Source of the DNA: Parabacteroides goldsteinii
GTDB lineage: Bacteria > Bacteroidota > Bacteroidia > Bacteroidales > Tannerellaceae
DNA: 41,021 nucleotides
Direction: 5' to 3'
NCBI RefSeq assembly: GCF_015550595.1
Contig: NZ_JADNBB010000042.1
Location: forward strand, 1-41,021
Part shown: piece by piece, positions 21,235-41,021 of the stretch
How positions within the stretch are numbered: position 1 is the first letter of the stretch
Layout: every line of letters starts with the position of its first letter
Program-made: the position numbers and the translations under genes
The notes under the pieces: generated by a model
Seen by the model: only the letters and a program-made list of their open reading frames with translations
Databases searched by the model: none
Told to the model about the DNA's origin: nothing

Positions 21235-21342
21235 ATTGTTGCCACCCGGCTGAACAAGAACACACAAAGGGACTTCATAGATTTCCTTCTAAACGAGGCG
21301 GAGCCGACCTATTGGAGAAAGATACTGAAACTGACAATCTAA
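21235..21342 (+). pseudogene. C-terminal gene fragment of a conjugative-element remnant
   Basis: An open stretch without its own start encodes IVATRLNKNTQRDFIDFLLN and EAEPTYWRKILKLTI before TAA. The sequence is coding-like (amphipathic, well-formed ending), and the next ORF, 13 bases downstream, is a PcfK-like start. It is probably the tail of the gene that preceded pcfK in an integrated conjugative element. I do not recognise the family. Confidence 0.45.
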
Positions 21343-21355
21343 AAACGACGGCGAT

Positions 21356-21445
21356 ATGAAAGGAACAGATCATTCCAAGAGAACGATACAGATGTATCTG
21401 GAACGGCGTGCGGAGGAAGATGCGCTTTTTGTGAAGAACTATCGA
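21356..21445 (+). pseudogene. Truncated PcfK-like gene (first 30 codons)
   Basis: The ORF starts MKGTDHSKRTIQMYLERRAE then EDALFVKNYR, the N-terminus of PcfK-like proteins of Bacteroidales conjugative transposons (normally over 120 residues). After residue 30 the similarity stops and the frame runs into AT-rich sequence and the vsr gene. The restriction module seems to have landed here, cutting the gene. Confidence 0.65.
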
Positions 21446-21521
21446 TTACATGTATTCTCATATTCAGAAATTCGAAGAATTGACATAAATTGGTTAATTT
21501 TGCCATATCGAACTGAAGTGT

Positions 21522-22037: not shown

Positions 22038-22038
22038 T

Positions 22039-23229: not shown

Positions 23230-23234
23230 AATAA

Positions 23235-24530
23235 TCAATCGTCTAACATGGTTTTTACTAATTGTTCTGAAACAGCTGTGATAAGAGGCACCACAACTGA
23301 ATTCCCGCATTGCCTGTAAGCTTGTACATCAGAGACTTGGTCAAGGCGATATTCATCGGGATATCCCATTAGTCGGGCACATTCACGAGGAGACAATCTA
23401 CGAGGATTCTTTCCTCCTGTTTGTGGAATAAGGATTTCGGAACCATCCTTATAGTAACGGGCACTTAACGTACGGGAAATGCCATTCAGATCCACCATTC
23501 CGAAACCAAACCCATTTCCTTTGGCGCGGTGCTTTTCTGCATAGTTTTGCAGATAGCTCCAAAGTTTGTCACTTAACGTGTATTTTTCGTCAATATCAGG
23601 GTCAAGTATTTCTTTGATACTCCGGGTTGATTGTTTCTGATCGGGAAAGGCGAATTGTTCTTTCCCATGAAAGAGATCTTGGTCAAAACCTACTATCATG
23701 ATACGTTCCCGATGTTGTGGCACATAGGTTTGTCCGTCCATGACAAGGTAGTGGAGTGAATAACGCAATTCCTCTAATGTGCCTTTGATTACCTTAAACG
23801 TGTTGCCTTTGTCATGCGACATCAGGTTTTTCACATTCTCCAAGAAGAACGCTTTGGGACGGTGACGACTGATAATGTCTGCCACGTCAAAAAACAATGT
23901 CCCTTGCGTTTTATCCCTAAATCCCGTTTCCCGTCCGAGACTTTTTTTCTTCGAAACTCCGGCAATAGAAAATGGTTGACACGGAAAACCGGCACATAGC
24001 ACATCAAAATTCCGAGGGATATAGCTTTTGGTCATTTCTTTCGTAATGTCGCCGAAAGGCATTTCTCCAAAGTTTGCCAAGTAAGTCTTTTGAGCGTACT
24101 TGTTCCATTCCGACGAGAATACACACTTGCCACCTTGCGCCTGCATGGCTAGGCGGAACCCTCCCATTCCGGCAAATAGATCGATGAAAGTAAATTTTGG
24201 TTCTTTAGGGTCGGGAAACGGCACATTGAAGAAATCCGAGAACAGACCGTATGCGGCAGGATCTTCTGCGACTTTGGTCACATATTCATCCGTTATTTCT
24301 TCTTCCTTGCTCTCTTCTTTCTGCTCTAAAAACTCACGGATGGCGTATATCATTTCCCGCTTACTTTCTTTGCTTTCGATGCAGTCGTTGTTATGCAGAT
24401 AATGGCTGAGTACAGCCAATTGATTTTCCCAACTGGTCTCTCCGTACACTTTAATGTTGTTTTGCTCGTCAATTTCCTCGGGGAAGTCGGCGAGCTTAAT
24501 ATCTTGTATGACTGTCTTTTTTGCTATCAT
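23235..24530 (-). CDS. dcm: DNA cytosine-5 methyltransferase (Dcm-like)
   Basis: 431 residues. Motif I is [13 protein letters not shown] (about 113-125), the catalytic motif is [11 protein letters not shown] (Cys184), motif VI is ENVKNL (231-236) and the last motif is [12 protein letters not shown]. An N-terminal extension of about 110 residues precedes the catalytic domain, as in Dcm and M.EcoRII. The enzyme protects host DNA from the adjacent restriction enzyme. With vsr it forms a complete EcoRII/Dcm/Vsr set. Confidence 0.95.
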
Positions 24531-24614
24531 TCAATTTGTGAATTAATTAATGAGGACAAAAGTACTGATTTTTATCGAGAACAGCGAATAACAAGTTTTT
24601 AAAGATTCCGCATT

Positions 24615-24818
24615 CTATTCCTTTTGTAACGTTTGGTATCGTGGATAAAGGTTTTCATCAGTGACGTTTTTCAATCCATGGAGTACTATTGGGTTATCCC
24701 CTACAGTTGCCCGGTACAGAGGAAGCGGTTTCTTGCCCATGACGAGCAGGGCATGGTTACGAACAAGTAACGCAGCGGTGTCAGGATTTGGCTTCGACAG
24801 TGATTGTAATGGCTTCAC
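24615..24818 (-). CDS. Unidentified small ORF or gene fragment
   Basis: 67 codons with a coding-like second half (KKPLPLYRATVGDNPIVLHG; LKNVTDENLYPRYQTLQKE). The N-terminus looks frame-disturbed: another frame upstream reads REAITITVEAKS then stops. It may be the 3' end of a mobile-element gene. No family recognised. Confidence 0.3.
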   Translation of the reverse strand: MKPLQSLSKPNPDTAALLVRNHALLVMGKKPLPLYRATVGDNPIVLHGLKNVTDENLYPRYQTLQKE

Positions 24819-24895
24819 GAATTATCGCTACTTCAACTAAAACTCTTGTAACTCAATTCTATCACTATATCTTTCCGCATTTCACTTTTTTGTAG

Positions 24896-24903
24896 TAATT
24901 TTG
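24896..24903 (+). promoter_or_regulatory. -7 box for the interrupted Rpn gene
   Basis: TAATTTTG matches TAnnTTTG, 32 bases before the start codon of exon 1. Confidence 0.45.
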
Positions 24904-24934
24904 TACCTCTAAAGAACATCAAAAACAAAAAACT

Positions 24935-24976
24935 ATGGAAAGATATTTGGATCCAAAAGCCGATTTGACTTTCAAG
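24935..24976 (+). pseudogene. 5' exon of an Rpn-family gene
   Basis: Fourteen codons encode MERYLDPKADLTFK, the well-known start of Rpn/PD-(D/E)XK family proteins. The next bases are GTGCGAC, the 5' end of a group II intron. The gene resumes at about 27345. Confidence 0.85.
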
Positions 24977-25586
24977 GTGCGACACGAAGTCGTATAAATA
25001 ATTGTTTTACATTAGATAAAACCTGCTGTTCCGTCAGCAGTTGCCTATTGATATATGCATTGCGGGTAACTGCATTGTATAAAGCTATCGAGACAAAGTA
25101 ATCCTTCCTTGATGGAATAAAGCCAATCGTGAGAGAAGTTTGATGGCTGTTAGTATCATACGGTCAGGATGCAAGGCAGGAAGGTATGGTTAACATACGT
25201 GAACTACTTATAGGTGTCGTTATCAAAGGAATAAGCCAAAGATACTGAAAGGCTTACCTAAAAAGGATAGTAGTCGGGTTATTCTTCCCTTTGAATAAGA
25301 ATACACGGAACATGATGGCTACCGGCGCAGAGGTGGAACCTACCCCTTCCATTTGTTATTTATACGAAACGTGGTAAGCCCGTATTATTCTTCCTTTAAA
25401 CGGGAAGAAAGCAGTTCGCAAGAAAAGCCGTTAATAATGCGGGTAAGAGATGGTGGAAAACGCGAAAGCCTTTCTGTAATGGAAAGGATAGAAGTTTTAA
25501 CGTTACTTCGCACGAAAGTGTGCAGACTTCCACACAAGGTGACTCATTACAAGAAACTTACAGAACTTCAGAAAGGAGGAAAGCAA

Positions 25587-27250
25587 ATGAACGAATCAAC
25601 GTGTGCACCTTCTGACGCAGAAACAGCATGGTCCTTGATAGACTGGGATAAATGCACAACCTACGTTAAGAAGCTGCAAGCTCGTATTGTAAAGGCTCAA
25701 CAGGCAGGTAGACATGGAAAGGTTCAATCCCTTGAGTGGCTATTAACCCACTCGTATTCAGCTAAAGCGTTAGCCGTAAAACGAGTTACTTCAAACACTG
25801 GCAAAAGAACATCCGGGGTGGACCATGAGATATGGACGACTCCTCTATCCAAGGGCAAAGCCATACTGAAATTAAAACGTCATGGCTATTGTCCACAATC
25901 CCTAAGACGGGTCCATATTAAAAAAAAAGTAACGGAAAACTACGTCCTTTAGGTATCCCGACCATGACCGACCGTGCCATGCAGGCACTTTATCTCATGG
26001 CGTTAGACCCTGTATCGGAGACAACTGCCGACACGGTATCCTATGGTTTTCGTAAAGAACGTAGCTGTTGGGATGCCATCGAACAATGTTTTATCAATTT
26101 ATCTCGAAACAACTCAGCCGGTTGGATACAGGAAGGAGATATAGAAGGTTGTTTCGACCATATCAGTCACGAGTGGCTGATGAAGCATGTACCGATGGAT
26201 AAAAACATCCTTGGAAAATGGCTTAAAAGCGGTTTTGTCTTTAAGAACCATCTTTATCCTACCGACGAAGGTACGCCACAAGGGGGTATCATTTCCCCCA
26301 CACTGGCAAATCTGGCCCTTGACGGTTTGGAAAAAGAACTGGCACAAAAGTTTAAAATCCGATGGACCGGTGGTTATCATAACTTTAAAGTGAACCTGAC
26401 GCGTTATGCGGACGACTTTATCATCACAGCCGAGAGTAAGGAGACAATCGAAGAGGAAGTCCTTCCTCTTGTACGGAATTTTCTGGCAGAAAGAGGTCTT
26501 ACGCTTTCAGAAGAGAAAACCAAGATTACCCATATAAACGAGGGCTTTGATTTCTTAGGTTTCAATATACGAAAGTATAGTGGAAAACTATTGATAAAAC
26601 CATCTAAAGAACGTGTCAAAAAGTCCCTTCTTAAAATCCGTAAGATAATCAAGGATAACTCCGATTGTCGACAGGAATATTTGATAAGACTACTAAATCC
26701 TGTTATACAAGGTTGGGCGAATTACTATCGGTATAGTGTCGCCTCTAAAATCTTTGATAACACAGACCATCAGATATTTATCAAACTGTGAAAATGGAGT
26801 ACCCGTCGCCATCCAAAGAAAACCCGTTCGTGGATAGTTCGTAAATATTATCACCATATCGGTACCCGTCATTGGTGCTTCTCAAGTAAAAGGGAGAAGT
26901 GTGGCAAAGAGGGGCCTGCATATGATGTAATCCGGTTTCTGACAGACACAAAGATAGAGCGGTATATCAAAATAAGAAAGCAAGCCAACCCGTATGACCC
27001 GGCCTGGAATGCTTACTTTGACAAAAGATATACGTACAAAATGCTTCAGCATCTGAATGACCGTAAATATTTACTGTACTTGTGGAACAACCAGGATAAA
27101 AGATGTCCTTACTGCAATCAACCTATCGACAAAAAACAAGCTTGGAATGTACAGCGTCTTGAAAAGGACGGTAAGCCAATCCGGTTGTTAGTTCACGACA
27201 GTTGCCGCAGACGAAAAGACCAGTTAAAAGGTATTGAGCCGGTTCCATAG
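25587..27250 (+). pseudogene. ltrA: Broken group II intron reverse transcriptase/maturase
   Basis: Start at ATG 25587 behind GAAAGGAGG. The frame encodes the RT N-terminus (MNESTCAPSDAETAWSLIDW) up to RRVHIKKK. A run of nine A (25920-25928) then shifts the frame; one more A would restore KKKSNGKLRPLGIPTM. The second part has the RT core with YADD (RYADDFIITAES) and the maturase helix region (NPVIQGWANYYRYS). It ends at TGA 26789-26791, where Trp (TGG) is expected. The same frame continues through WSTRRHPKK to an HNH-like end (CPYCNQPI...VHDSC), stopping at 27250. The lesions suggest an inactive protein unless slippage or readthrough rescues it. Confidence 0.88.
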
Positions 27251-27269
27251 CAGGAGCTTTGAGTTGCTT

Positions 27270-27344
27270 GAGCCGTATGCGGTGAAAGTCGCACGTACGG
27301 TTCTTAGGGGAGGAAGCGGCAGTGATGCCGCCGACTTACCCGCT
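27270..27344 (+). ncRNA. Group II intron domains V and VI
   Basis: Domain V (27270-27303) begins GAGCCGTATGCGGTGAAAGT and folds into a near-perfect hairpin with the catalytic AGC triad and a GAAA tetraloop. Domain VI (about 27307-27341) carries the bulged adenosine used as branch point. The RNA catalytic core thus appears intact although the protein is not. Confidence 0.9.
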
Positions 27345-28238
27345 CGTATTTTGGCGAACATCCCGACCTGGTGATGAGTTTCCTGAATGCGCTCCTCCAG
27401 TTGGAAAAGGATGAGGAGATTGAACATATCGAGTACCTTCCCGCCGAGATGGTTCCCGAGACCCCGTTGCGCAAGAATAGCATTGTGGATGTGCGTTGCC
27501 GTGACAGCAAGGGGCGGCAGTTCATCGTGGAGATGCAAATGGCCTGGTCGCCGGAGTTTCGCCAGCGTGTTTTGTTCAATGCTGCGAAAGCGTATGTGCG
27601 TCAGTTGGATAAAGGAATTGATTACAGCTTGTTGGAGCCGGTCTATTCGCTGAATTTAGTAAATGACGTGATGTACCCATTGCTCCCGGGCTATTATCAC
27701 AACTACCGTATCGTACATGAAGAGCACAGTGACCGGGTGATAGAGGGGTTGCATTTGGTATTTGTCGAACTTCCCAAATTTACGCCCCAGACGTTTGTCG
27801 AGAAACGTATGCATGTTCTTTAGTTGCGTTACTTGACTGAGATTAAAGATAATACAGAGGTTGTCTCTACTGATTTGCTGGAAAAATCCGGAAATTGGGA
27901 AAGCCTTGTATGAAATCCGTGAATCAGCCTTTTCGAATGCTGAATTGGCAGCCTACGACAAATTTTGGGACATCATCAGTGTTGAGATTACCCTCTATAA
28001 TAGCTGGATACGCAGAGGAATGGTCAAAGGGATGGCCAAAGGACTTGCAAAGGGACGTGCCAAAGGACTTGCTGAAGGCATTGCCAAAGGACGTTCAGAA
28101 GGTCTTGCCGAAGGGCGTGCCGAAGGAGAAAAGTTGAAGCAAGAGGCGATAGCTCGTGGAATGAAAGCGGATGGATTATCCATTGAAATGATCGTTCGTT
28201 ATACCGGCTTATCAGCTGAAGATATTGAAAACCTGTGA
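27345..28238 (+). pseudogene. 3' part of the interrupted Rpn-family gene
   Basis: Downstream of the intron the Rpn gene continues (FGEHPDLVMSFLNALLQLEK; IVDVRCRDSKGRQFIVEMQM). The catalytic core D-V-R...F-I-V-E-M-Q-M is preserved. Several lesions follow: the frame is uncertain by one base at the intron junction, TAG at 27821 replaces an expected Trp codon after KRMHVL, and an extra A near 27882 shifts the frame into the last part (NPEIGKALYEIRESAFSNAE). The C-terminus has the family's Gly-Lys/Glu repeats (GLAKGRAKGLAEGIAKG) and a final helix-turn-helix-like segment. The gene is dead even if the intron splices. Confidence 0.85.
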
Positions 28239-28294
28239 TGTGCAGTATTGCTTTTAATACTTAAAAAAACAGCTACCTGTACACTTTGTTAAAT

Positions 28295-28350
28295 AAAAAC
28301 GGCTGTCTGAAACTTACATTCTTGTGAGATTTTCAGACAGCCGTTTTTTT
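28295..28350. terminator. Strong bidirectional terminator
   Basis: AAAACGGCTGTCTGAAA and its complement form an 18-bp stem (28295-28312 with 28331-28348), followed by T7 on the plus side and flanked by A-rich sequence on the left. It ends the fimbrial operon from the right and the Rpn remnant from the left. Confidence 0.9.
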
Positions 28351-28370: not shown

Positions 28371-31300
28371 TTACTTCACCTCAACCTTTTCGCTGACGAC
28401 TTGCGAACCGCTTTCGGCGCGGACAACGTAGAAGCCCGGTGCGAGGTGGTCGACAAAGGCGGTCGGCGTGTTCAGGTTGCGCAAGGTGCGCAGGGCACGG
28501 CCGGCAATGTCGTAGACCGTCACTTCGTTCAGTGGATCAACAGAAGATATATCGATCCGTCCGGGGGCACTGTTGTAGAAAATGATGCGGCCCTGGGCAA
28601 TGATCTCGTTCGACGTGGCGATGGAGCCGTTCAGGAAGTAGCGTCCGGAGGTGTTGCCCGGAACGGTCAGCGTCAGGCCGTCGGTCACGTCATAGCGCTT
28701 GCCGGTTTGTTTGTCTACCAATTTCACGTTCTTCATGGCACCCGACAGTTTGAAGCTCAGCTCTACCGGGGTCGCGTCTTTGCCGTGGATGCCGACCGGT
28801 ATTTCGTTCAGCTCCGGTGTCACGTTGATGGCCGTCATCTGGCTACCGGCAAGGGTATAAACCTGCGGTGCGGCGACTTCCTCGTTGATCAGCAAGGCGG
28901 CATCTTCCCCCTCCACATAGCTGTCCGAAGCGGTAACCAAACCGGCAACGACGGCGGTGTTGCGTACTCCGTCACGGGTGGCGGTGATGCGTAATTGCGG
29001 CAGGGGGTCTTCGGATGAGGCAGCGGTGGCGGAGCGCAAACCGAGATTAGTTCCATTTGCCGGGGCTTTCGCAATCATCTCGGTGTTGAAAGTGGCAGAA
29101 GGCAAATCCGGAACGATGAATGATTGGAGAGGGGCGACAAACTTCGGATCTGCGTCACTTGTCGAGATGCTATATTCATTACCCAGGATATGGGCAGTCG
29201 TACCTGTAGAGGTCATGATATAGTAAGTATTTTGTGACTTACCGTTTAAGAACTCCTCCATATCCAGATGCGACATGAAGGGGTTACCGAACATACCGCC
29301 TGTAGAGGAAACCTCACAAAACTTAACAGCGTTCCGTCCTTTTTCATCAGGGCTGATATGGAAGCGGCCGTTACCGGCGCGATTTGTCAATATTGTATCA
29401 TTTCCGCTACCTGTCGTACTACCATAATAAGTATATTTATCATCAGCCTTCGGCAGACGGAACAACACTTTACTATTAGTTAATGCAGTTTTTTTATCCG
29501 TCTTCGTCCCAATCGAGAATCCAGTACCCGGCGTAAACGGAACATTTACATCATTATACAGGTTTGACCAACTACCTGTAATCCCGTAATTGACATTTGC
29601 AGAACCATTCGGACGAACAACCGTAGCCGTTGTCTTATCCCATCCACGCATATAGACGGCAGGTTGCCAACGGGTATAGTTTGTGTTATTATAGTTGATA
29701 TTCTCAAACGCCGGTGTCTCCTGACGTGCATACTTACCTACAGAAGAAGTACCTGTCGGTAAATACATATCCCCCGACACCACGCCTTTCAAGGGTGAAG
29801 CGAGCATGTACCAGCGATTCGGAGCCATTTCGTAATCTACGTGTGCCTTGTTGTAAGTCAAGAACTCCGTATGCAGGATTTCCGATTCGGGCTTGATGTA
29901 GATCTCGTCGCAGGTGTTGCCGTAGAAGCGGACACAAGCGTAATCATGATCCTTTAATGCAAGTTCACCTGTTGGTTCTTCACCCCATAATTCTTTCTCA
30001 TAATCCGGATCGGCAAGCAAGTCATATTCGATGTTCTTAGTGGCAGCACCGATTTCATTGGTCGTAGCCATCTGTAATATCGGATATTGCTCTTGCTTTT
30101 TTAATTCATATAAATGCGGATAGGCAGAATAAGGCTTATTTTCCTTATTGCCATAAATCGTCACCTTCGTGAAACGCATCGGGGTGTAGGCTTCGTTATG
30201 AGTACCATTTACTTGTGCACCTGTTTGTCCATCATCCGTTCCCATATAAAGCTCACTGTTCTTAGACCGTCTCCAATGGCTTGGTCCGTCGTTATTCCAG
30301 TTGTGCATATTCTCGGCACTACCTACCCACGTCACATATTCGGGGACGATTTTAAGGGTGAGTTGGAAAGAACCGGAATAAGCGGTCTTATCATCTTTGT
30401 CCTTTACAGCATAAGGTATATCCACCATATACCAAAAACCTTCTTTGAAGTTGTTAACAGCCTCTTCGGTGAATTTGATTTTGAAATAATTCGTAGCCCA
30501 GGCTGCTGTTGTAGCATTATCGACAAGTTCCTCCAGAGTAGCAACCGATTTTGAGTTATTATATTTCGTGTCAGAAGTCTTCAAAACCGTTATATCGGTC
30601 TTTGTATCCTTAGCAAATTTCTCACCCTCTGCCGACTTCCGGAAATGAACCGGAATACGCAATGTACCATCATTCTTCTGCATATCTTGTATCTGGACTA
30701 ATCCGACACGGACAGACCGGACATGTTTACCTCCAAAATCATCCGGTTGGTTCGGATTATTCGGATCTTTGGGGTCCGGGTCTTCAGGGTCTTTGGGATC
30801 ATCCGGGTCCTCTGGATCAGGCACGTCGGGATCACCCGGCTCGATAGTCGGAGGATTCGGACCTAATTGGATTACGACAGGGTCAGGGCAATACAAATGG
30901 TCATCAATCACATTACCATTACCATCTTTTTGTTGAGCTTGTGGCAAACCTATAATTGTTTGGTATTTGTTTGCCATTATGTATTCAAAGGATGATTGAC
31001 TAAAGACAAATTTCCCGCTCGCATTGTCTCCACGATATTCTCCTCCATAAGTTGTTAAAGCATTTTTTATAACCTCACTCCCATCCGGATTCGTAGAAAT
31101 CTCCCTTAGTGCCTGTGCTATTGTGTATGTTTGACTATTCACAGTCACTGTTGATGCATTAAACTCTACGACATCTCCTATAAACCAATCAAACTTGGCA
31201 TTTTCTACTGTTTCCCATCCATTTTCACCCAAATAACGGAAATTACCGGCTATTTTATATGTTTTCCCCTGCTCCGCATTTTCCGGTGATGAGATTTCAG

Positions 31301-33929
31301 TATTCAAATCATCCCCTTCAAATATCTTAAAGCGATCTCCCGTAAGAGAAATACTAAACGGATCTCCGGTTAAAGCACAAGCATCGCACTTAGCAGGCAC
31401 ACTAGGGTGACCTATCGGTTGAGCGGAAATTCTGGCTATATATTTTTTACTGGGATCAAATGACTTACCAATATTAAGAGGAAGAGAATAGATTTTATCT
31501 TCCGATGTTTTTCCATCCGAACCAAAAGACGAATCCACCCATTTCATATCTTCCTTACGAGTGGAAAGATAAGACACACGACATGATTCCGGGATGCCGT
31601 CACCATCGTAGTCGATTTCAATAGGACTATTTAAATTATCCTCCACATAAACGGAATAATAAATTTTTGTAAAGTATTCTACTGCATCACTTTCGCCATT
31701 AGGATATGTTTTACTTATATAATCTTTCAACTCCTGAGGCAACTTGTCATCCCATTCAACATCTTTATTTATACCTTCCACTTTTGCGTTCGCAGTCAAC
31801 CCCATTACACTCATTATATTACTATAACTTGTTACATATTTGACTGTTTTTAATTCCGTATCACACAAGTCACCGGCTTGGATAATTTCAACTTCCGGCT
31901 TTCTTTTGAAGATACGGATGTCGTCAATGGCATAGTCGGCTCCATCGGTGTGGGGCTCGTTGTTTTGGACTTCCAAATAGAATTCGGTACAGCCGGCGAT
32001 CTCATCTTCCGAAACGGCAAATTTGTAATGGAATTGTTGCCATTTCATGAGGTTATAATTAAATTTATCTTTGGTCTCTGCTTTTACATTAGGAGCATTT
32101 GAATGACCAAGCTTATTATCTCTATAATCCGTCAATGCATCTCCTGTTGTAAAACGATGAAGAACAACTTCTTCTTGACCTTTTACTCCTTTTAATATTA
32201 TATTCAAATTTGGAGCCAACGGAAGAGGATTGCCATCAGCCCATACGTCACATCCCGGACGCGTCATATCGGCTAACCATCCGGTTACGGTCAACTCCGT
32301 ATTTCCACAAATAGAACCTTCTATTGGTACAGATACCAAAGTACCAGGTTCATCCGTTGCATCAATATAACAAAAATAACCGTATTTTGCCGCCCCTGCT
32401 TCCTTTGTTACTGTATAAGTTCGATCATACAATTCTCTGTTTTCATAAATTTTATTTCCATATTTGTATACATCTTCTATATAAGGTGTTACCCACTTAT
32501 AGTATCTATTTACATCGCCAGTAGAACAAAGATCATCATGTTTAGACTTACCTTCAACATTCGCACTTCTAAACAAGCCATACATTCCAGGATATGAAGT
32601 ATAACACTTTGAATTTTGGTCTAATAGGGACTTACCATTTATATATATAAATCCATAACTTGTTTCAGACTGGTTGAAAGAGCCCAAAGGACTATTTGAC
32701 ATATTATCACCTGCTTGAATCTCATTTACAATAGACTTTTGGTCAAAATCAACAATACCTATTTGTTCATATTTCTTAATATTCCCTCTGGGCCATCTAT
32801 CACTATCCTTATTTATCTCATCTTCCAATATGAACTTGGCATTCTCAATGGGATGAAAATTGAAAGTGGCAATAACCCCACTTTGATGGGGAGTGTTTTC
32901 ATTACAAATGGCTCGTATATCAACCTTAAAATCATTTTTAAGCGCATCGTTTATTTCTATTTTCTGCGTCTGTTGCAAATCCAAGTCTGCCTTTCTTGTT
33001 ACAAGATGAAAATCTTTAAAATCGGCATCATTATCACTATTTATTCGATATTGAAATTTTGATCCTTGGTGAACCTTCCCATCGTTCCAAAAATAATTAT
33101 CCGGTGTATAAGGCATAGATAAGTTTATAGATTCTGCATCTTTCGGAAAATCGATATAATAAATTGTTTTCTCCTGAATATAAGAAGGACACTCTTCCGC
33201 TTTTTTAATTACATACTTGTATCGTTTAAGCAAGGTGGGTTCTGCATATGTTCCTTTGATATCAGAAGAACTTGAAGGTGTCCAAATTCCATCCTGATAA
33301 ACACTTACATCACAATACACAACATCACCATCTGCATAGTCGTTCGGCAATGTATAGGCAATAGTAGAGGCATCGATTCCTAGACCACGCTTATATTCAC
33401 TCAAAATGCCGTTGGTTTGTTCCGGAATAACATTTGAATCTTTTAATCGATTCGACCAAATTAAGCCATCGGTTTCTTTGACTTTGACAAAATAATCATG
33501 TGTTATGTACAGATCCGCATTTCCTGTATTTCCTGCTGATTTTCCATTACATATACTCAAAGATCCACCTCTATTAGCAGACATGTTTTTAGTAACAGTT
33601 ACTGAGTGATGTCCTATTCTTTCTTTGATAAATTTATCTCCATTTTTTACATACCAATGAACAAACCAGTTGTAAGATTTATCGTTATCGTTCCTCGTAT
33701 TTACATTCAACACTGGTATCGACAATACACGTGGCTTAGCCGGATCAACATAAATAATCTCTTCTTTCACATGAACTTTATCATGATCTTCTGAAAACTT
33801 TAGGCTAATCACCGGTCTATTCGTCGTTTCCTGTCCCCAAGCCATCCCGACGCCTCCGCCTGTCAGCAGGGCGAACGACAAGAACAGCATCCGGAGCCAT
33901 CTGTCATATATTATTTTATTTCGTTTCAT
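28371..33929 (-). CDS. 1852-residue type IX-secreted surface protein, candidate fimbrial adhesin
   Basis: Signal peptide (MLFLSFALLTGGGVGMAWG, cleavage near residue 32). The last 75 residues form a type IX secretion C-terminal domain: GRIDISSVDPLNEVTVYDIA, GRALRTLRN, LAPGFYVVRAESGSQVVSEK and the final VEVK. Residues about 1024-1063 are an Asp/Pro-rich linker (DPEDPDDPKDPEDPDPKDPN) dividing the protein in two. The N-terminal part is beta-rich with several cysteines. It is the last gene of the Mfa-type fimbrial operon, 12 bases after the preceding gene. By analogy with T9SS-secreted Mfa5 of Porphyromonas gingivalis, it may be the tip adhesin (inference). The central part (about 29.3-33.8 kb) is visibly AT-richer than the C-terminal part and the upstream genes. 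Confidence 0.85.
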   Translation of the reverse strand: MKRNKIIYDRWLRMLFLSFALLTGGGVGMAWGQETTNRPVISLKFSEDHDKVHVKEEIIYVDPAKPRVLSIPVLNVNTRNDNDKSYNWFVHWYVKNGDKFIKERIGHHSVTVTKNMSANRGGSLSICNGKSAGNTGNADLYITHDYFVKVKETDGLIWSNRLKDSNVIPEQTNGILSEYKRGLGIDASTIAYTLPNDYADGDVVYCDVSVYQDGIWTPSSSSDIKGTYAEPTLLKRYKYVIKKAEECPSYIQEKTIYYIDFPKDAESINLSMPYTPDNYFWNDGKVHQGSKFQYRINSDNDADFKDFHLVTRKADLDLQQTQKIEINDALKNDFKVDIRAICNENTPHQSGVIATFNFHPIENAKFILEDEINKDSDRWPRGNIKKYEQIGIVDFDQKSIVNEIQAGDNMSNSPLGSFNQSETSYGFIYINGKSLLDQNSKCYTSYPGMYGLFRSANVEGKSKHDDLCSTGDVNRYYKWVTPYIEDVYKYGNKIYENRELYDRTYTVTKEAGAAKYGYFCYIDATDEPGTLVSVPIEGSICGNTELTVTGWLADMTRPGCDVWADGNPLPLAPNLNIILKGVKGQEEVVLHRFTTGDALTDYRDNKLGHSNAPNVKAETKDKFNYNLMKWQQFHYKFAVSEDEIAGCTEFYLEVQNNEPHTDGADYAIDDIRIFKRKPEVEIIQAGDLCDTELKTVKYVTSYSNIMSVMGLTANAKVEGINKDVEWDDKLPQELKDYISKTYPNGESDAVEYFTKIYYSVYVEDNLNSPIEIDYDGDGIPESCRVSYLSTRKEDMKWVDSSFGSDGKTSEDKIYSLPLNIGKSFDPSKKYIARISAQPIGHPSVPAKCDACALTGDPFSISLTGDRFKIFEGDDLNTEISSPENAEQGKTYKIAGNFRYLGENGWETVENAKFDWFIGDVVEFNASTVTVNSQTYTIAQALREISTNPDGSEVIKNALTTYGGEYRGDNASGKFVFSQSSFEYIMANKYQTIIGLPQAQQKDGNGNVIDDHLYCPDPVVIQLGPNPPTIEPGDPDVPDPEDPDDPKDPEDPDPKDPNNPNQPDDFGGKHVRSVRVGLVQIQDMQKNDGTLRIPVHFRKSAEGEKFAKDTKTDITVLKTSDTKYNNSKSVATLEELVDNATTAAWATNYFKIKFTEEAVNNFKEGFWYMVDIPYAVKDKDDKTAYSGSFQLTLKIVPEYVTWVGSAENMHNWNNDGPSHWRRSKNSELYMGTDDGQTGAQVNGTHNEAYTPMRFTKVTIYGNKENKPYSAYPHLYELKKQEQYPILQMATTNEIGAATKNIEYDLLADPDYEKELWGEEPTGELALKDHDYACVRFYGNTCDEIYIKPESEILHTEFLTYNKAHVDYEMAPNRWYMLASPLKGVVSGDMYLPTGTSSVGKYARQETPAFENINYNNTNYTRWQPAVYMRGWDKTTATVVRPNGSANVNYGITGSWSNLYNDVNVPFTPGTGFSIGTKTDKKTALTNSKVLFRLPKADDKYTYYGSTTGSGNDTILTNRAGNGRFHISPDEKGRNAVKFCEVSSTGGMFGNPFMSHLDMEEFLNGKSQNTYYIMTSTGTTAHILGNEYSISTSDADPKFVAPLQSFIVPDLPSATFNTEMIAKAPANGTNLGLRSATAASSEDPLPQLRITATRDGVRNTAVVAGLVTASDSYVEGEDAALLINEEVAAPQVYTLAGSQMTAINVTPELNEIPVGIHGKDATPVELSFKLSGAMKNVKLVDKQTGKRYDVTDGLTLTVPGNTSGRYFLNGSIATSNEIIAQGRIIFYNSAPGRIDISSVDPLNEVTVYDIAGRALRTLRNLNTPTAFVDHLAPGFYVVRAESGSQVVSEKVEVK

Positions 33930-33941: not shown

Positions 33942-35333
33942 TTAGTTTTTATCTGTTGTCAGTTCAAATAGATCTGCAAAGCGTAACTGGATTTGGAAAG
34001 TGGCCAAGACACTGCCGTTGCTCTTTGTCTTTGCTATCAGTTCGAAAGTCGCGCTCTGATCCTTAGTGGCTGCACCGACCATGCGACCGCCTGTTATTTG
34101 ATAACGTAATGCACCATCTATTGTGGCTTGCTCTATTTTATTAGGAGCTTCCGCCAACAAATCGCCCTTATCTACCTTTCCGATACTCCAAGTTACCTGA
34201 TCAGAAAGATCCGTTTCTCCACTTTCCTCCTGCGAAAACAACTTTTTAATTATAATCGTAAACGGACCGCCACCATATACCGTGCAAACCAAATCGGTTA
34301 TACCATCGCTTGTAACCGAAGACTCCGGATACCCTCCGATCGGCGGATTCTCATTGCTTACGGCTAAAAGCGTCAATTTATAAGGCGTAAACTCGATATT
34401 CAGGTTCCAAAAATGGTTGCGGGGGATCTGGCGAAGAGCGGTGTACTTTGTTCCTTGATGGGGGTTATCATCATCTGTTGGATGTTTGTCACTACTCGTT
34501 TCCAACTCCACCTTAAAACCGTCGGCTGCTTCCGATTCGTTCACGTAATACCAATCGGATTCTATGGATTCGCTTGCTGCAAGTTGTTTGTTTTCTTCGA
34601 AAGGCTTGTCAATCGAATAACCGTCTCCCGTCAGAGCCAAAAACTTGTCCGCTTCAAAAAGATTTCCTGCCGTGTTGAACTTACCTAAAGCCAACTTTGT
34701 AACGGTAATCGGATGGCTCGTTCTGTTGAGCATCTTGACTTTCAAACGACTTACTAAACGAACCAAATAAATCGGTTTCACCCCTTTTGCCGGAACCCAC
34801 TCTTCCAGCACGCTCATGGGGAGGAATTTTGATGTCTTAGAAATGTCATTAACACCGGATTCCCAAGAAACGGAAGCGGGAAGTGGCGGCATATCTAGTC
34901 CTTCCGGTGTATTTACAACATTTCCCAACGGATTGTTTTTTAGCGACTCCCAGTTGGCAAACGCATAAATCTTCTTTGGGCCGCCGGTAATCTCAAAAGA
35001 ACCGGACTTCCAGCTTGTCAGTTCGCCTTTCTCCGCCTGTTCATCACCTGTCAAATCCGGTTGGAATTTCTTTTCAATCTCGCCGGAAGCGTTGACGATA
35101 AACACTACCAACGAGTTGATCTGTTCGCCGGGCAAGGCATTTACATCTGCGGCTTTCGTCTGCAACGACTTCGAAGCATCGGAGACGCCCACCTGCAAAT
35201 CCACCTCCACCATTTCGGGAAGGTCGGGTTCGCCCCCCGCCCCCCGTTCGCCACTCACGCAACCGAACGCGATGAGAGCAAGCAGGCTGGCAAGCAGCGG
35301 CAGGTTCTTGTATTGATTCAGTCGGCTTTTCAT
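33942..35333 (-). CDS. Fimbrillin-like lipoprotein, probable minor fimbrial subunit
   Basis: 463 residues. Lipobox LIAFGC (Cys25) predicts export as a lipoprotein, as for Bacteroidales fimbrillins. Fimbrillin-like features are the LNSLVVFIVNASGEIEK-type strand after the N-terminus (near 73), KKIYAFANWESL (near 120) and RLVSRLKVKMLNRTSHPITV (near 190). The C-terminal domain is Ig-like. It is translationally coupled to fimB by an ATGA overlap (35330-35333). It may be a tip or adaptor subunit comparable to Mfa3/Mfa4; the exact role is inferred from position. Confidence 0.75.
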   Translation of the reverse strand: MKSRLNQYKNLPLLASLLALIAFGCVSGERGAGGEPDLPEMVEVDLQVGVSDASKSLQTKAADVNALPGEQINSLVVFIVNASGEIEKKFQPDLTGDEQAEKGELTSWKSGSFEITGGPKKIYAFANWESLKNNPLGNVVNTPEGLDMPPLPASVSWESGVNDISKTSKFLPMSVLEEWVPAKGVKPIYLVRLVSRLKVKMLNRTSHPITVTKLALGKFNTAGNLFEADKFLALTGDGYSIDKPFEENKQLAASESIESDWYYVNESEAADGFKVELETSSDKHPTDDDNPHQGTKYTALRQIPRNHFWNLNIEFTPYKLTLLAVSNENPPIGGYPESSVTSDGITDLVCTVYGGGPFTIIIKKLFSQEESGETDLSDQVTWSIGKVDKGDLLAEAPNKIEQATIDGALRYQITGGRMVGAATKDQSATFELIAKTKSNGSVLATFQIQLRFADLFELTTDKN

Positions 35334-36352
35334 AATCCCATCTCCTCATTACCAAGTGTCACGTCTTCGAGGCGGACGATCCAGTCGTCCACTACCACAT
35401 AGAGGCAGTGCGCCCGTCCACCGGCAATATCCACGTAGGCGGTGAGCACATATTCGTCCTGACGGTCCAGGTATTCCTGCCCCGGCAACTTGTGCGAAGC
35501 GATCTGCGTCAGTTTCAACAGACCTGCCAGGTCGACGTTGATGAACGGCGTCTTTTCGCTTGCATAGCGGACACTCAGCGTACCGGTCGCATTGTCGATC
35601 AGGCGCAAAGTGTTCAGTTCGGTGCAGACGGCATCGTATGAAACGGTCGCATTATCAGCCGACTTGACCGTTTCCACCTGTTGCAGGTAGGGCTGCCAGG
35701 TGATGCGTGTGGCGGATTGCGGTTCGTTGTGCGCGTCAAGGTCGCTGTTCGTGGTGGTGACCACGAAGTCGAACGCGTCTTCCTCCAGTTTCGTGCCCCG
35801 GTTGGCATCCACCAGGATGAAACGGATTTTGTTGGTGTTCTTCACCAACGGAAACTCGGTGTCGGTCGCTCCGCCTACAGGGATCGTGTAGTCGAGTTCG
35901 CCCTGGAAGAGGCCCGACAACTCGCGGTCCACGCGGTTTTTAGCCGCCTTCACCGCCATGCGGAAATCATCGATGGAAGAGCCGGCGGCAGGTTCCGTCC
36001 AGGTATAATCCGTATCGTTCAGCCCCGCCCAGGCAAGCAGGTGGTAGTCGCCCGGAGCCAATTCGCTGAGGTCTACTTCGTTCTTTTTCAGTTCTTCACC
36101 CTCGATCAGCCGGGAAGAAAGGAACGCGCCCTTGTCGTCGTAGATGTAGAGGCGGACGTTCTTTTCGCGCTCCTGGTTCACCATTTCGTAGGCAAACGCG
36201 TCGGCGTGTTTGATGTTGTGCCGGTAGACGAAACGGAGCGTGTGCCGGCAAAGAGGCAGTTCGTTATGGATGTAATCACATGAAGAGAGTCCGGCAAGGC
36301 CGAGAACCGCCAGCACCGGGAATAAAAGGTATAGTATCTTATGGTATTTCAT
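35330..36352 (-). CDS. FimB/Mfa2 family fimbrial anchor subunit
   Basis: 340 residues from ATG 36350-36352, preceded by AGGAG; a longer frame adds 19 residues but has no signal peptide at its front. The lipoprotein signal is LGLAGLSSC. The FimB/Mfa2 hallmarks follow: LPLCRHTLRFVYRHNIKHAD, VRLYIYDDKGAFLSSRLIEG and DLSELAPGDYHLLAWAGLND. Members of this family anchor the fimbria in the outer membrane and regulate its length. It lies between the fimbrillin-like genes, in the middle of the operon. Confidence 0.9.
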   Translation of the reverse strand: MKYHKILYLLFPVLAVLGLAGLSSCDYIHNELPLCRHTLRFVYRHNIKHADAFAYEMVNQEREKNVRLYIYDDKGAFLSSRLIEGEELKKNEVDLSELAPGDYHLLAWAGLNDTDYTWTEPAAGSSIDDFRMAVKAAKNRVDRELSGLFQGELDYTIPVGGATDTEFPLVKNTNKIRFILVDANRGTKLEEDAFDFVVTTTNSDLDAHNEPQSATRITWQPYLQQVETVKSADNATVSYDAVCTELNTLRLIDNATGTLSVRYASEKTPFINVDLAGLLKLTQIASHKLPGQEYLDRQDEYVLTAYVDIAGGRAHCLYVVVDDWIVRLEDVTLGNEEMGL

Positions 36353-36372
36353 TGTTCTCCTGTTTTTATACA

Positions 36373-38259
36373 TTAAAAATAAATCGTTTCGTCCGGTAGC
36401 GATCCCCAAGGTCTGACAATCACTTCGATCTCGATTTTTTCCGGTTCATCGGGTTTGTCCGGATCTTCGGGGTCTTTCGGATCATCCGGTTTATCCGGAT
36501 CTATCGGCTCCTCGGGATCGAACGGCGGTTCGTAGGGAATGTCGTCCCCCAGGCCGTAGAAGTCGCGGATGCGCAGCTTGTAGACGTTGTTGCGCACAAT
36601 GGCATACTCCATGATCCCCTTCGACGGGGCATTATTGTTGGAATGACGGATCCAGTGCGTGTAGAAACAAACACCGTCCACGTAGGTATGCAGACCATAG
36701 CGTGCCAACAGACGGCGAGTGTCTTTACCGCCCTGATTGACCTGCGGCGTGCCGTCCGTACGTGAGGCATATCCGAACGTCGTATACATATATTCCTTCC
36801 ACGCCAATGCCGAAACTTCGGCAGCAGTCAGGGCAGCCGATGATTCCTTGTCTTTCAACTGCCTTGAAAGGAAACGGCGGTATCCGGTCGGGTCGCCCTC
36901 CTTCAAGCTCGATGCCAGCGAACGCACGTCACCCCAGGTCTTGCCCGTGAAGTCGTAAGTAGAGACGTCCAACGCCCCTTCGGTGAAAGCCAGCATCGCT
37001 GCTTCGGGCGAACCGTATATCGCGCCCCCGAAAGCGAAGAAGGTAAACGGCGAACCGTCCAGTCCTTTGCGGTAGTCGGTCGTGCCGGTGGCGGGATCGT
37101 AGAAGAGGCACTTTCTAGGTCCGTATAATGTCCTGAACACCACGCCTGTACAATAGTAAGGCGACTGGTCGGCACGCGCCACCGTATTTTCTTTCGTGTA
37201 GCCCACGCGGTACCATTCGCCCACGCGGTCGCCCATGCCGTTGGTGAAACGCCAGTTACCTGCCGAAGTACCGAAACTCATAAAGTAGTTTTCATAGAGG
37301 GCTTCGGCCGGTTTGCCGTCCGAAGCGGGACGCTCCGGCCAGTTGGGGTTGAACATCTCGCTGTTAACATTCGCCATCGTCTTGTATCGGCTCCACGGGT
37401 CGAGCACGTAGTTGGTCTGGTGGTCGCCCCATTCAGGCAGCTCCAGGCCTAAAAACTCAACTGCGCTTGCCGGTCCGAACGCATCGTCGGCCACCGCTCC
37501 GACCACTCGTTTGACCATGAACGAACCCGCATCCAGCTTATTGACGATCATGGCACCGGTAATCGACACACGGGCCGCTCCCGCCGTCTTGTCCATCACG
37601 TCGAAATAGTCATGTACCGGCAGATAGTCGATGCGTGCCGCATGACGTTCCACCTCGACCGTTGCGGAAGCGGGGTTATCGATCGTGTTGTCACCGCAGA
37701 TGTAGACCTTCTCGTCCAGATGACCGTCCGACGCCATCACGAAATGTGAATACTCGCCGTTTCTTTCCATCCACGCACGCTTTTGCAGGAAGTCACGCAC
37801 TTCTCCGAGCGTCAAGTCCTTGAGCTGCGGGCGGATGTTGCCGGTGTTGGTGATAACCAGCAGGTCGTACCATCCGGCGGGCAGTCCCACCAGCACCGGT
37901 TCGGTACGGTTGTCGCCCTGCATGGCGTCGCGGTCGAGATAGATGATCTTGTCGATCGGTGTCGAGGCGGGCGAGTTCACCCCCTCCGTCCCCCGGTAGA
38001 AGAGCAGCATCAGGTCGTCGATGCGCGTTTCGTAGTCCTGTCCCGGCTCGTAGCCGTCGCCGTTCTCGCCCCCTGTCGGGTTCGAACGGGTGAGTGGCGC
38101 CTTGGCATCCGGGCAATGGAGCGTCAGGCTGAGATAGTTCTCTTCGACCGACTTGTCGCCGCCATCGTCCCGTTCCGTACGAAACTCGTCTGAACAGCCG
38201 ACCAACAAAAGGCCGCCGACTGCACAGGCATATACCAATAATTTATGTGTAATATTCAT
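36373..38259 (-). CDS. Mfa1-like major fimbrial subunit
   Basis: 628 residues with lipobox LLLVGC (Cys22). Residues 40-130 carry the fimbrillin N-terminal pattern (NYLSLTLHCPDAKAPLTRSN; RIDDLMLLFYRG; LPAGWYDLLVITNTGN). The C-terminal domain ends with NNVYKLRIRDFYGLGDDIPY and a last strand VIVRPWGSLPDETIYF, the Mfa1/type IV fimbrillin C-terminal motif. A run of Asp/Pro/Lys (EPIDPDKPDDPKDPEDPDKP) is inserted before that last strand, matching the linker type in the large secreted protein. It is the likely shaft protein, polymerised by donor-strand exchange after RgpA-type cleavage (known for the family, inferred here). Confidence 0.85.
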   Translation of the reverse strand: MNITHKLLVYACAVGGLLLVGCSDEFRTERDDGGDKSVEENYLSLTLHCPDAKAPLTRSNPTGGENGDGYEPGQDYETRIDDLMLLFYRGTEGVNSPASTPIDKIIYLDRDAMQGDNRTEPVLVGLPAGWYDLLVITNTGNIRPQLKDLTLGEVRDFLQKRAWMERNGEYSHFVMASDGHLDEKVYICGDNTIDNPASATVEVERHAARIDYLPVHDYFDVMDKTAGAARVSITGAMIVNKLDAGSFMVKRVVGAVADDAFGPASAVEFLGLELPEWGDHQTNYVLDPWSRYKTMANVNSEMFNPNWPERPASDGKPAEALYENYFMSFGTSAGNWRFTNGMGDRVGEWYRVGYTKENTVARADQSPYYCTGVVFRTLYGPRKCLFYDPATGTTDYRKGLDGSPFTFFAFGGAIYGSPEAAMLAFTEGALDVSTYDFTGKTWGDVRSLASSLKEGDPTGYRRFLSRQLKDKESSAALTAAEVSALAWKEYMYTTFGYASRTDGTPQVNQGGKDTRRLLARYGLHTYVDGVCFYTHWIRHSNNNAPSKGIMEYAIVRNNVYKLRIRDFYGLGDDIPYEPPFDPEEPIDPDKPDDPKDPEDPDKPDEPEKIEIEVIVRPWGSLPDETIYF

Positions 38260-38283: not shown

Positions 38284-39714
38284 TCATTCTGCACGCTTCG
38301 CCTTGATTTGTTCGAGGTTCGCACGAGCTGCTTCGCCTGCTACCGAGCTGTTTTGCAACGTTTTCAAGATGGTTTCCGCACCGTCCAGGTCGCCACGCAG
38401 CATCCGGACGGAGGCAAGCGCCAACTGTTTCTCGTCGCCTTCGGCAGCTTTCGCAAGGTAACTTTCCGCACGGTCCAACTGGCCCGTCCGAATGGCGGTG
38501 TTGGCGGCATTCAAATTAGACACCGGATCGTCGGGGAACATGCGGACGGCGATTTCGAATACTTCGTTATACTTCTCGCTGCCGGCTTCGAAAAGCTGTG
38601 CCACCATGAACATTTCGTTCAGGCTCAATTTCTTCGGGTCGGTATAGATCAGCGACTTCGCCTCTTCGGCAGTGAAGTTACGGATGTTGTATTTCACCAC
38701 GTAATCCGAGTGACGCAAAGCGGGATAGATGTCACGCAACAGGATCTTGTAAGAGGTACCGCCGTTCAGCACCTTCAACTTCAGTTCCTTCTTGTCCATG
38801 TCGCGCGGTTCCGGATTGCGGATGATGGCGAGCAGTTCCGCCTTGTCGGGCAGGTTCATATCTTCCAGCCGCTTTTCCAGACCTTCCCAGTCTTCCGGCT
38901 CGAAGTCGACGCTGAACGTGGCATGTTCGAAGCGGTAGAGGCTTTTCACGTAGTCGCGCAGTGCCTTGGCACGGTTTTCTGCTAAATAGGTGTTGTTGGC
39001 GTAAGTTCCTTCGGGAGAGGCGAAACCTTTGATCCACACCTCCGTGATGGTGGCGTAGGGATCGTCCTTCACCGACTCGATCGTGGCACGGATGGCGGCC
39101 AGTTCGCGCGGGTTGTTGCGATAGTCGGGATAGATCGTAATCTTGTTGACCGGGAAGTCGAGAAACGCCTTGCCTTCGATCGAACGCGCCTTGACCGCTT
39201 CGGCTTCGGGCGTACGGTAGGCGAGCTGCGGTTTCAGGACAACCGGTTCGGCCATATTGATCGGGAAGAGCGGTGAGCGGTCGTTCTGCAATGCCTCCCA
39301 ACCGCAACCGCATTCGTCGATAACAAGGGCGACTTCCGACTTCTTCATCCACGGAGCCATCGGCGTGCGGGTGGTGTATTCGAAGGTCTGCGGCTTGCCG
39401 TTCTCGCGGCGCAGTTCGTATTCGTCGTGTGTCGTATAGGTGCGGTCGGTCCGTTCATATAGGATGTGGCGGTCACGACCGCTGACGATGACCGGCGTCA
39501 GGGGACGGATACTGTCGCCCGCCGAGATGACCGGCGTGCAGACCAGGCTGCGGTCTGAAGGAACCTTGATTTCGCCGAAGTCGAGCGTCATGCCGATCAC
39601 GAGAGTGCCATCCGACTTCTCTACAATCTTGTCCTTGATTTTGATTTCCTGTGCCTGCAAGGCGGCTGCCGCCAGCAGGCTTGTCACAATCAGTATATGT
39701 TTGTTCATTTTCAT
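38284..39714 (-). CDS. DUF3868 / OmpA-like protein with TPR tail
   Basis: 476 residues. Signal peptide to about residue 20 (LLAAAALQAQ). Residues 22-150 form the DUF3868 domain. An OmpA-like motif, EVWIKGFASPEGTYANNTYL then AENRAKALRDYV (225-256), resembles the peptidoglycan-binding loop of OmpA C-terminal domains. The C-terminal third is helical with TPR-like repeats (YNEVFEIAVRMFPDDPVSNL; AANTAIRTGQLDRAESYLAK). It probably links the fimbrial assembly to the cell wall. It is the second gene of the operon, 13 bases after DUF3575. Confidence 0.88.
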   Translation of the reverse strand: MKMNKHILIVTSLLAAAALQAQEIKIKDKIVEKSDGTLVIGMTLDFGEIKVPSDRSLVCTPVISAGDSIRPLTPVIVSGRDRHILYERTDRTYTTHDEYELRRENGKPQTFEYTTRTPMAPWMKKSEVALVIDECGCGWEALQNDRSPLFPINMAEPVVLKPQLAYRTPEAEAVKARSIEGKAFLDFPVNKITIYPDYRNNPRELAAIRATIESVKDDPYATITEVWIKGFASPEGTYANNTYLAENRAKALRDYVKSLYRFEHATFSVDFEPEDWEGLEKRLEDMNLPDKAELLAIIRNPEPRDMDKKELKLKVLNGGTSYKILLRDIYPALRHSDYVVKYNIRNFTAEEAKSLIYTDPKKLSLNEMFMVAQLFEAGSEKYNEVFEIAVRMFPDDPVSNLNAANTAIRTGQLDRAESYLAKAAEGDEKQLALASVRMLRGDLDGAETILKTLQNSSVAGEAARANLEQIKAKRAE

Positions 39715-39727: not shown

Positions 39728-40324
39728 TTAGAATTGATAAATCAGGTTGATAGCGGCCTGCGTGGGACCGAAATAGTGCTTCTTGACATACTCCTGGCGG
39801 CGTCCGCAGTTGGTACAGGGGTACTTTTCCGATTCGAGGTAGAGATAGCCCACGCCAACAGTCGCTTCCAGGTTCCAGTGCTTGGAGAGCAACCAGGAAT
39901 ACCCGTAGCTGACACCTACACCCGCGCCCCAACCCTGGTGGCGTTCGTTTTCGGTACCGAGCAGCTTGATGTCCGATACATTATATAATATGTACGGGAC
40001 ATGTAGCCCGATGAAATGTTTGTAGAATGTTTCACAGAACCAATAGCGCATCTCCGGATGCAGCCTCCAATGTTTGAGAGATTTGCCATAGCTTCCGTCA
40101 TCTTTCTTTCCGTCGAACGGATTGAGGCCGGTTTCTATGTCCAGGCTCCAGTGACGTGCCAGGCGGAACTCCGCACCGGCATTGAAAGTTGCCATTGCTC
40201 CCCAATATGGAATATTGGTCTTGATCCCGACGGTCGAACCTTTTTCTCCGGTCAACCTGTCCTGTGCGTAGAACGACAGAGGGATCACAAACAGGAACAT
40301 CATCAAGATAAGTTTTCTCATCAT
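39728..40324 (-). CDS. DUF3575 outer membrane beta-barrel protein
   Basis: 198 residues. Signal peptide (ILMMFLFVIPLSFYA). The mature part has the DUF3575 pattern: VGIKTNIPYWGAMATFNAGA, EFRLARHWSLDIETGLNPF, HPEMRYWFCETFYKHFIGLH and WNLEATVGVGYLYLESEKYP, with CTNCGRRQEYVKKHYFGPTQ and a final Phe typical of outer membrane barrels. DUF3575 and DUF3868 genes regularly head Mfa-type fimbrial operons. As first gene it is the direct target of the upstream regulatory segment. Confidence 0.9.
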   Translation of the reverse strand: MMRKLILMMFLFVIPLSFYAQDRLTGEKGSTVGIKTNIPYWGAMATFNAGAEFRLARHWSLDIETGLNPFDGKKDDGSYGKSLKHWRLHPEMRYWFCETFYKHFIGLHVPYILYNVSDIKLLGTENERHQGWGAGVGVSYGYSWLLSKHWNLEATVGVGYLYLESEKYPCTNCGRRQEYVKKHYFGPTQAAINLIYQF

Positions 40325-40535: not shown

Positions 40536-40554
40536 AACTTATTTATGAAATAAG
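40536..40554 (+). repeat. Left 19-bp inverted repeat of a candidate invertible segment
   Basis: AACTTATTTATGAAATAAG, whose exact reverse complement is at 40945-40963. The site is itself nearly palindromic (CTTATTT...AAATAAG) with an asymmetric centre, as in many site-specific recombinase sites. Confidence 0.8.
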
Positions 40555-40944
40555 AATAATATCATAAAGTCTTTTGAAAATCACGCATTATCATTCATCT
40601 CAAAATGATTACTGAATGCAAAGTTAAGATATTAGTTGTTAAAATGGAAACAATTTCTTACTATTTTATCTATATCTTTAGGTTTGTTTTCAGGCTAAAT
40701 AAAGACTACTCGAAATTTATACTATATTTTATATAAATTCAACCGCTAAGTCTATACTAATATTAAATGGAAGAATGTTTAGACATAGCCGGTTAACCCC
40801 ATCATGCTTTAACTTTTCTTTAGTAAAGATATCCTTACCTTTTTTTGTAGAATTAAACATGCTTGAGCTTCCATTGCTGGTTTTCTACTCTTCATAATAG
40901 CTGTCGTTTCTTTAGAATTTATACTCTAAAATGGACAAGCCTAA
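40555..40944. other. Invertible-type segment, AT-rich, no gene
   Basis: 390 bases between the two inverted repeats. No ORF is supported. It contains one good -7 box on the minus strand and is strongly AT-rich. Confidence 0.6.
40619..40626 (-). promoter_or_regulatory. -7 box pointing at the fimbrial operon
   Basis: Reads TAACTTTG followed by CA on the minus strand, fitting the Bacteroidota -7 consensus TAnnTTTG. A TTG lies 24 bases upstream (rightward), a little farther than usual for -33. Transcription would run left through 40554 into the DUF3575 gene, so this orientation would be ON. Confidence 0.55.
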
Positions 40945-40963
40945 CTTATTTCATAAATAAGTT
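40945..40963 (-). repeat. Right 19-bp inverted repeat of a candidate invertible segment
   Basis: Exact reverse complement of 40536-40554. The remaining bases to the window end (40964-41021) show no gene. Confidence 0.8.
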
Positions 40964-41021
40964 CCTTCTATCCGATAAACTCCTCTTCCTTTTTGTTTGT
41001 TTATCAGTATTTTACTAATGG

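Follow-up and report, generated by a model that had tools for sequence, protein, structure and literature searches.

The window analysed here, a stretch of 41,021 nucleotides from Parabacteroides goldsteinii, makes up contig C36 in its entirety; the genome, of 6.53 Mb, is assembled in 85 contigs. On its minus strand, from 40324 to 28371, lies an operon of six genes that extends for about 12 kb (table 1) and belongs to the Mfa1 type of fimbrial operons (type V pilus), combining a fimbrillin with an anchor subunit of Mfa2 type and with genes for DUF3575 and DUF3868 proteins. The first-pass annotation of this DNA had described a DUF3575-DUF3868-Mfa1-FimB operon ending in a giant protein secreted by the type IX system, and domain matches recover these genes over the same length. 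Our guess is that the Mfa1-like protein, which scores under the cut-off for NF038041, is an accessory or tip subunit. Upstream of the operon, two inverted repeats enclose a segment that contains a candidate promoter; the end of a tyrosine recombinase gene follows, and the edge of the contig is reached 58 bp past the right repeat.

Table 1. Features of the fimbrial operon and of the invertible segment preceding it (positions in the window)
Feature	Position	Strand	Basis or remark
1852-aa protein with type IX secretion sorting tail (TIGR04183)	28371..33929	-	
Mfa1-like protein, NF038041 score under cut-off	33942..35333	-	
Mfa2/FimB-type anchor subunit	35330..36409	-	
Mfa1-family fimbrillin (Fimbrillin_C, NF038041)	36373..38259	-	
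DUF3868 protein	38284..39714	-	
DUF3575 protein, first gene of the operon	39728..40324	-	
Left inverted repeat (operon side), AACTTATTTATGAAATAAG	40536..40554	+	sequence
Invertible segment, 390 bp, box toward operon (ON)	40555..40944	.	C53 junction and G022 inversion
Putative -7 promoter box TAACTTTG, 64 bp inside the operon-side repeat, toward operon	40619..40626	-	sequence and recurring placement
Putative -33 element TTTC (3/4 match to TTTG), spacer 20	40647..40650	-	sequence
Second box TAGGTTTG, toward recombinase, 258 bp from the recombinase-side repeat; present in G022 too; doubtful role	40679..40686	+	sequence
Right inverted repeat (recombinase side), exact reverse complement of AACTTATTTATGAAATAAG	40945..40963	-	sequence
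Tyrosine recombinase, last 22 codons and stop	40951..41019	-	remainder on C53

The two repeats, already recognized in the first-pass annotation as a perfect 19-bp pair around 390 bp, match each other as reverse complements at 19 of 19 positions. Their layout, CTTATTT-ATG-AAATAAG, has perfect arms of 7 bp around an asymmetric core of 3 bp, and so agrees with the earlier description of near-palindromic sites with an asymmetric centre. An origin of the pair by chance is ruled out by an order-3 Markov control, in which none of 100 simulated windows contained a perfect 19-bp inverted repeat within 1 kb; at 16 bp, the same test gave a mean of 0.01 per window. Among the 25 longest of the 28 inverted repeats detected within 1500 bp in the window, only one further perfect pair has a length of at least 19 bp (27 bp, 15752/15865).

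Within the segment, the box TAACTTTG (40626-40619, minus strand) is aimed at the fimbrial operon, as had been proposed from the outset, and its sequence and position together suggest a promoter of Bacteroidales type directed outward. The minus strand contains no other TAnnTTTG motif between 41021 and the start of the operon. This motif is not rare by itself: The window has 36 copies versus 27.8 expected, a count that 11 of 100 shuffles reach. Its placement recurs, for 14 of 20 segments (the window's included) have an outward TAnnTTTG box lying 50-95 bp inside a repeat and six have none in this range; order-1 simulations (1000 runs) average 1.4 and never exceed 6, a control that is post hoc because the 50-95 bp range was picked after the box positions were known. 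Several features count against the promoter reading, namely the six segments with no box in this range, the imperfect -33 element, and an E. coli-type promoter match located before the DUF3575 gene (40367-40340), the region containing three such matches in total versus 4.0 expected.

In the first-pass annotation, no invertase gene was seen in the window and the enzyme was consequently thought to act from elsewhere. Both statements have to be revised: The last 22 codons of a tyrosine recombinase gene, at 41019-40951 on the minus strand, abut and overlap the right repeat, and an enzyme encoded elsewhere is not required. The stop codon of the gene falls within the repeat, which therefore also encodes the end of the recombinase. 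The remainder of the gene lies on another contig of the same genome, C53, with coordinates 19578-20567 if the start is as in the corresponding gene of genome G022, from a sister species (the longest frame begins at 19524). The protein has the domains Phage_int_SAM_5 and Phage_integrase, and its matches in the PDB are weak (XerC-like, E 4e-7; an XerD chain, 2e-4). Residues Lys185, Arg256, His279, and Tyr288, which we take to be catalytic, are invariant in 14 of 14 aligned relatives. All 14 relatives also have P162 and Y253 at the positions aligned with what we presume to be Arg I and His II of XerD, a departure that may speak against the inverting role proposed for this protein. The Bacteroides integrase IntDOT reportedly lacks Arg I as well.

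Evidence for inversion comes from the assembly itself. Read toward its end, C53 contains the window's right flank in reverse complement, then the repeat, and finally the left inner end of the segment; the right flank is thus joined to the right inner end in the window and to the left inner end, in an inverted junction, in C53. The two contigs overlap exactly over 77 bp at each of two places, and the inverted junction, at the contig end, extends 58 bp past the 19-bp repeat. Since 77 bp is much longer than the repeat, reads must have crossed this junction if it is genuine. The contig ends and the 77-bp overlaps would fit the branching of a de Bruijn graph with k=77, a value deduced from the overlaps, in which both orientations were present. 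Considering the window, C53, and the other fetched loci, three of the four possible junctions were found. The fourth, joining the left flank to the right inner end, is absent from the seven sites in the genome with the exact core and from all fetched loci; it would correspond to a graph edge of 135 bp, of a kind usually dropped for shortness. A second genomic copy behind the C53 junction was considered and rejected, because the full stretch is present once in the genome in addition to the two 77-bp pieces of C53; the order recombinase-segment-operon in G022 also disfavours it.

When the segment and its flanks were searched against 147 genomes, seven had any match, and the whole segment was found only in its own genome and in G022. 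The inversion that had been suggested as a check in related genomes is present in G022, between orthologous genes: The order is recombinase, repeat, segment, repeat, and operon, and the segment is 94% identical to that of the window and inverted, flanked by an operon of 92.8% identity over 10.2 kb and a recombinase of 97%. Both orientations are hence documented, by the C53 junction and by the inversion in G022. In the stretches of G022 that were compared, similarity to C53 begins about 120 bp upstream of the recombinase start; apart from one 107-bp repeat elsewhere, nothing matches before this point, and so the neighbours beyond it differ. Another fimbrial cassette behaves in the same way, since L037 and L038 (G016) are collinear in their flanks at 95-97% and have the segment inverted at 82%; over 3960 bp, L037 and L086 (P. 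distasonis NM39_I3) do not differ. Inverted alignments, with the segments alone compared, were also obtained for L034/L036, for L053/L056, and for L031/L079, the last being two cassettes of one genome. The pair L053 and L056 presents a 162-bp segment of the same sequence in opposite orientation in two genomes, with an adjacent recombinase and a different repeat core.

The recombinase belongs to a larger family. A search of the genome contigs with the single recombinase returned no relative; with the alignment of 14 recombinases as query, the best 80 of 544 matches were kept. For many, though not all, of the related recombinases in the genus, the gene is followed immediately by inverted repeats whose core is the same or similar. 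The P. goldsteinii genome itself has at least eight such cassettes (on C11, C33, C36/C53, three on C66, and two on C85), one of those on C66 with only a partial match to the recombinase. Contig C55 (L011:8268-8822) has a recombinase open frame of 183 aa followed by a lone repeat core for which no partner was found, perhaps a decayed cassette. Within the best 80 of the 544 matches, a pair of inverted repeats of at least 14 bp, with any core, lies near the gene end at 46 loci, and a gene of fimbrial type occurs in the available stretch at 23, several loci ending too early to be judged; both figures are plain counts without a chance control.

Operons with DUF3575 or fimbrillin genes lie downstream of similar cassettes at many Parabacteroides loci. 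Ten downstream proteins from eight cassettes were scanned, giving four DUF3575 proteins, two HU-like proteins, one Fimbrillin_C, one glycosyl transferase of family 4, one DUF6383 protein with a sorting-tail match under the cut-off, and one protein without a match. Given the recognizable core of the repeats, this recurring cassette would allow candidate phase-variable surface operons to be listed across the genus. In paralogous cassettes, HU-like DNA-binding proteins are interposed between switch and fimbrial genes (L060:8381-8830 and L062:11217-11516). At L065, L066, L067, and L068, situated on C66, C85, and C33 of the P. goldsteinii genome, the cassette is followed by a protein of 455-483 aa and then mostly by open frames of about 300 aa, rows that possibly represent a different surface operon; the protein of L065, the one scanned of these four, has a C-terminal DUF3575 domain.

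How is the switch set in the available assemblies? Among 42 distinct cassettes, the box is directed toward the recombinase (OFF) in 28 and toward the operon in none; the other 14 lack one in the 50-95 bp range. As the cassettes are related, the 28 do not represent independent events. They derive from 114 loci with at least 500 bp beyond the recombinase, some of them the same place represented more than once and some from other genera. Because cassettes were separated by exact segment, the near-identical L059 and L075 (97%) are counted apart, and because a set repeat core was demanded, L012, OFF in the set of 20 segments, is left out. The window itself, which is ON, stands outside this set. So does L095 (the same as L044), omitted for its length, which appears ON-like with operon-facing boxes at 196 and 59 bp. 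L037/L086, whose box lies at 42 bp and points toward the operon, are likewise ON-like; in L038, a recombinase-facing box lies at 41 bp. Both distances fall outside the 50-95 bp range. The examined assemblies are therefore predominantly OFF. If they mirror ordinary cultures, laboratory-grown cells may seldom produce these fimbriae.

The repeats, the two kinds of right-flank junction, the inversion between species, the neighbouring recombinase gene, and the recurring placement of the box lead us to conclude that this locus is, very probably, a phase switch under local control, in which the adjacent tyrosine recombinase flips the 390-bp segment and thereby controls the fimbrial operon. The invertible promoter originally postulated for this operon is strongly supported by the occurrence of both orientations, by the inversion in the sister species, and by the recurrence of the box. 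We infer an inverting role for this recombinase, an active promoter, and dependence of the operon upon that promoter. The protein encoded beside the segment would act on the two CTTATTT-ATG-AAATAAG repeats and invert the 390 bp between them. In the orientation of the window, transcription from the promoter at 40626-40619 would run leftward and cross the operon-side repeat before entering the DUF3575-DUF3868-Mfa1-Mfa2-T9SS operon (ON); after inversion, the promoter would point toward the 3' end of the recombinase gene, leaving the operon without this promoter (OFF). With both orientations in a single assembly, a Parabacteroides fimbrial operon that includes a giant protein with a type IX tail is very likely phase variable.

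This conclusion needs to be weighed against other explanations of the same evidence. The inversion might be due mainly to a recombinase encoded elsewhere, either a master invertase or an enzyme of another cassette with the same or a similar core. The at least eight cassettes of the same genome, each near a related recombinase frame (a partial match in one case), would offer an opportunity for such cross-talk, and a single tyrosine recombinase of B. fragilis inverts both a local and a distant promoter (PMC4747536). Nevertheless, the recombinase gene abuts the segment both here and in G022, and the repeat sequence beyond the core varies between cassettes, and we thus regard predominant control from elsewhere as improbable; an invertase acting in trans as the sole agent is less likely given the adjacent gene. 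Turning to the assembly, inverted repeats can cause template switching during library preparation, and three of the four junctions were found rather than all four, as might be expected if the C53 junction were an artefact of assembly or library around a segment that is actually fixed. Such an artefact is very improbable, because the junction lies in a contig end that continues 58 bp past the 19-bp repeat, because G022, an assembly of eight contigs, has the inverted form, and because orientation differs between species at other cassettes as well.

It could also be argued that the repeats are mere hairpins in a transcript, which attenuate or terminate it while the promoter between them stays fixed and no recombination takes place. 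The 19-mer can indeed fold into a weak hairpin (-1.8 kcal/mol, or -3.9 with two extra bases), and in B. fragilis, expression is lower where more repeats separate the promoter from the genes (PMC4747536). Yet hairpins leave unexplained both the inverted orientation on C53 and in G022 and the adjacent recombinase, and no terminator-like site was found in the region, a weak test given a chance expectation of merely 0.3; as a full account of the locus, this is extremely unlikely. Attenuation by the repeats may operate in addition to inversion: The operon-side repeat would be transcribed as part of the ON leader and, by analogy with B. fragilis, could attenuate this transcript.

Within the reading of a locally controlled switch, the predominance of OFF assemblies might have a mechanistic basis. 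In the OFF phase, the promoter would converge upon the 3' end of the recombinase gene; synthesis of the recombinase could then be reduced by antisense RNA or by transcriptional collisions, which would keep the switch OFF. In the ON phase, this brake would be lifted and the recombinase would return cells to OFF. We consider this feedback rather unlikely, albeit consistent with the 28 OFF and no ON cassettes among 42 and with the box, wherever it could be placed in the OFF state, always pointing toward the recombinase 3' end. In B. fragilis, the OFF bias of the IVp-I promoter is lost once its recombinase BF2766 is supplied from a plasmid, and the authors propose either that recombinase expression is suppressed or that some mechanism controls the orientation (PMC4747536). 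The OFF predominance and the loss of bias in IVp-I could, however, both be explained by selection during growth or by a bias intrinsic to recombination. If the feedback were true, Parabacteroides cassettes would be self-limiting switches with OFF as default.

The cassette conforms to a known type of switch, in which an invertible promoter lies beside the gene of a tyrosine recombinase, and is a well-supported example of it from Parabacteroides. In B. fragilis, the system of Tsr19/BF2766 and IVp-I has the same arrangement, a tyrosine recombinase gene with an invertible promoter immediately downstream and a TAnnTTTG promoter; IVp-I is prevalently OFF in the wild type and has a variable number of repeats, just as there are tandem copies in G022 and P. 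distasonis (PMC4747536). It differs in controlling a local exopolysaccharide operon as well as a distant promoter, instead of a DUF3575/Mfa1 fimbrial operon (PMC4747536). The tandem copies of the repeat lie beside the segment at L057:6094-6135 (G022) and at L037:2453-2503 (P. distasonis).

Contrary to the earlier suggestion, a fimbrial operon is not a new target for such promoters. In a 2025 study of gut invertons in a defined community, the orientation of the invertons led to the prediction that genes for FimB/Mfa2 are more highly expressed when cultures are surface-attached (PMC11892184), and so inverton control of this class of fimbrial genes is already in print; that work differs in being a prediction at catalogue level with Parabacteroides named nowhere in its main text. 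A 2025 review states that tyrosine recombinases mediate inversions at a phase-variable locus for a surface protein of B. fragilis (Weinacht et al. 2004) that matches a fimbrial N-terminal sequence (PMC12632263); as the review describes them, those loci belong to another genus, and fimbriae could not then be demonstrated by the authors. The Mpi-controlled capsule promoters of B. fragilis resemble the present case in being invertible promoters for a surface structure of Bacteroidales, but rely on one serine recombinase for many loci, in contrast to the tyrosine recombinase gene found beside the switch here (PMC12632263, PMC5903667). With an adjacent enzyme of tyrosine type and an operon that is fimbrial, the Mpi system is not the closest relative. 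The fimS element of E. coli, with FimB and FimE, is similarly a short invertible element by which tyrosine recombinases control fimbriae; it serves a pilus of the chaperone-usher class and is similar in its working rather than a member of the same family. A search that covered few subscription journals and no supplements found no published description of this Parabacteroides fimbrial cassette.

Elsewhere in the window, a region of about 13 kb (15000-28300) is unmatched in the compared stretches of G022 save for one 125-bp piece. It carries genes for an EcoRII-type restriction endonuclease, a C5 cytosine methylase, a Vsr endonuclease, and a group II intron reverse transcriptase/maturase, and is seemingly a restriction-modification island. 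The perfect 27-bp inverted repeat mentioned earlier lies within it (15752-15778/15865-15891, 86 bp apart). A protein of the RhuM family (Virulence_RhuM) is encoded at 10864-11895 on the minus strand.
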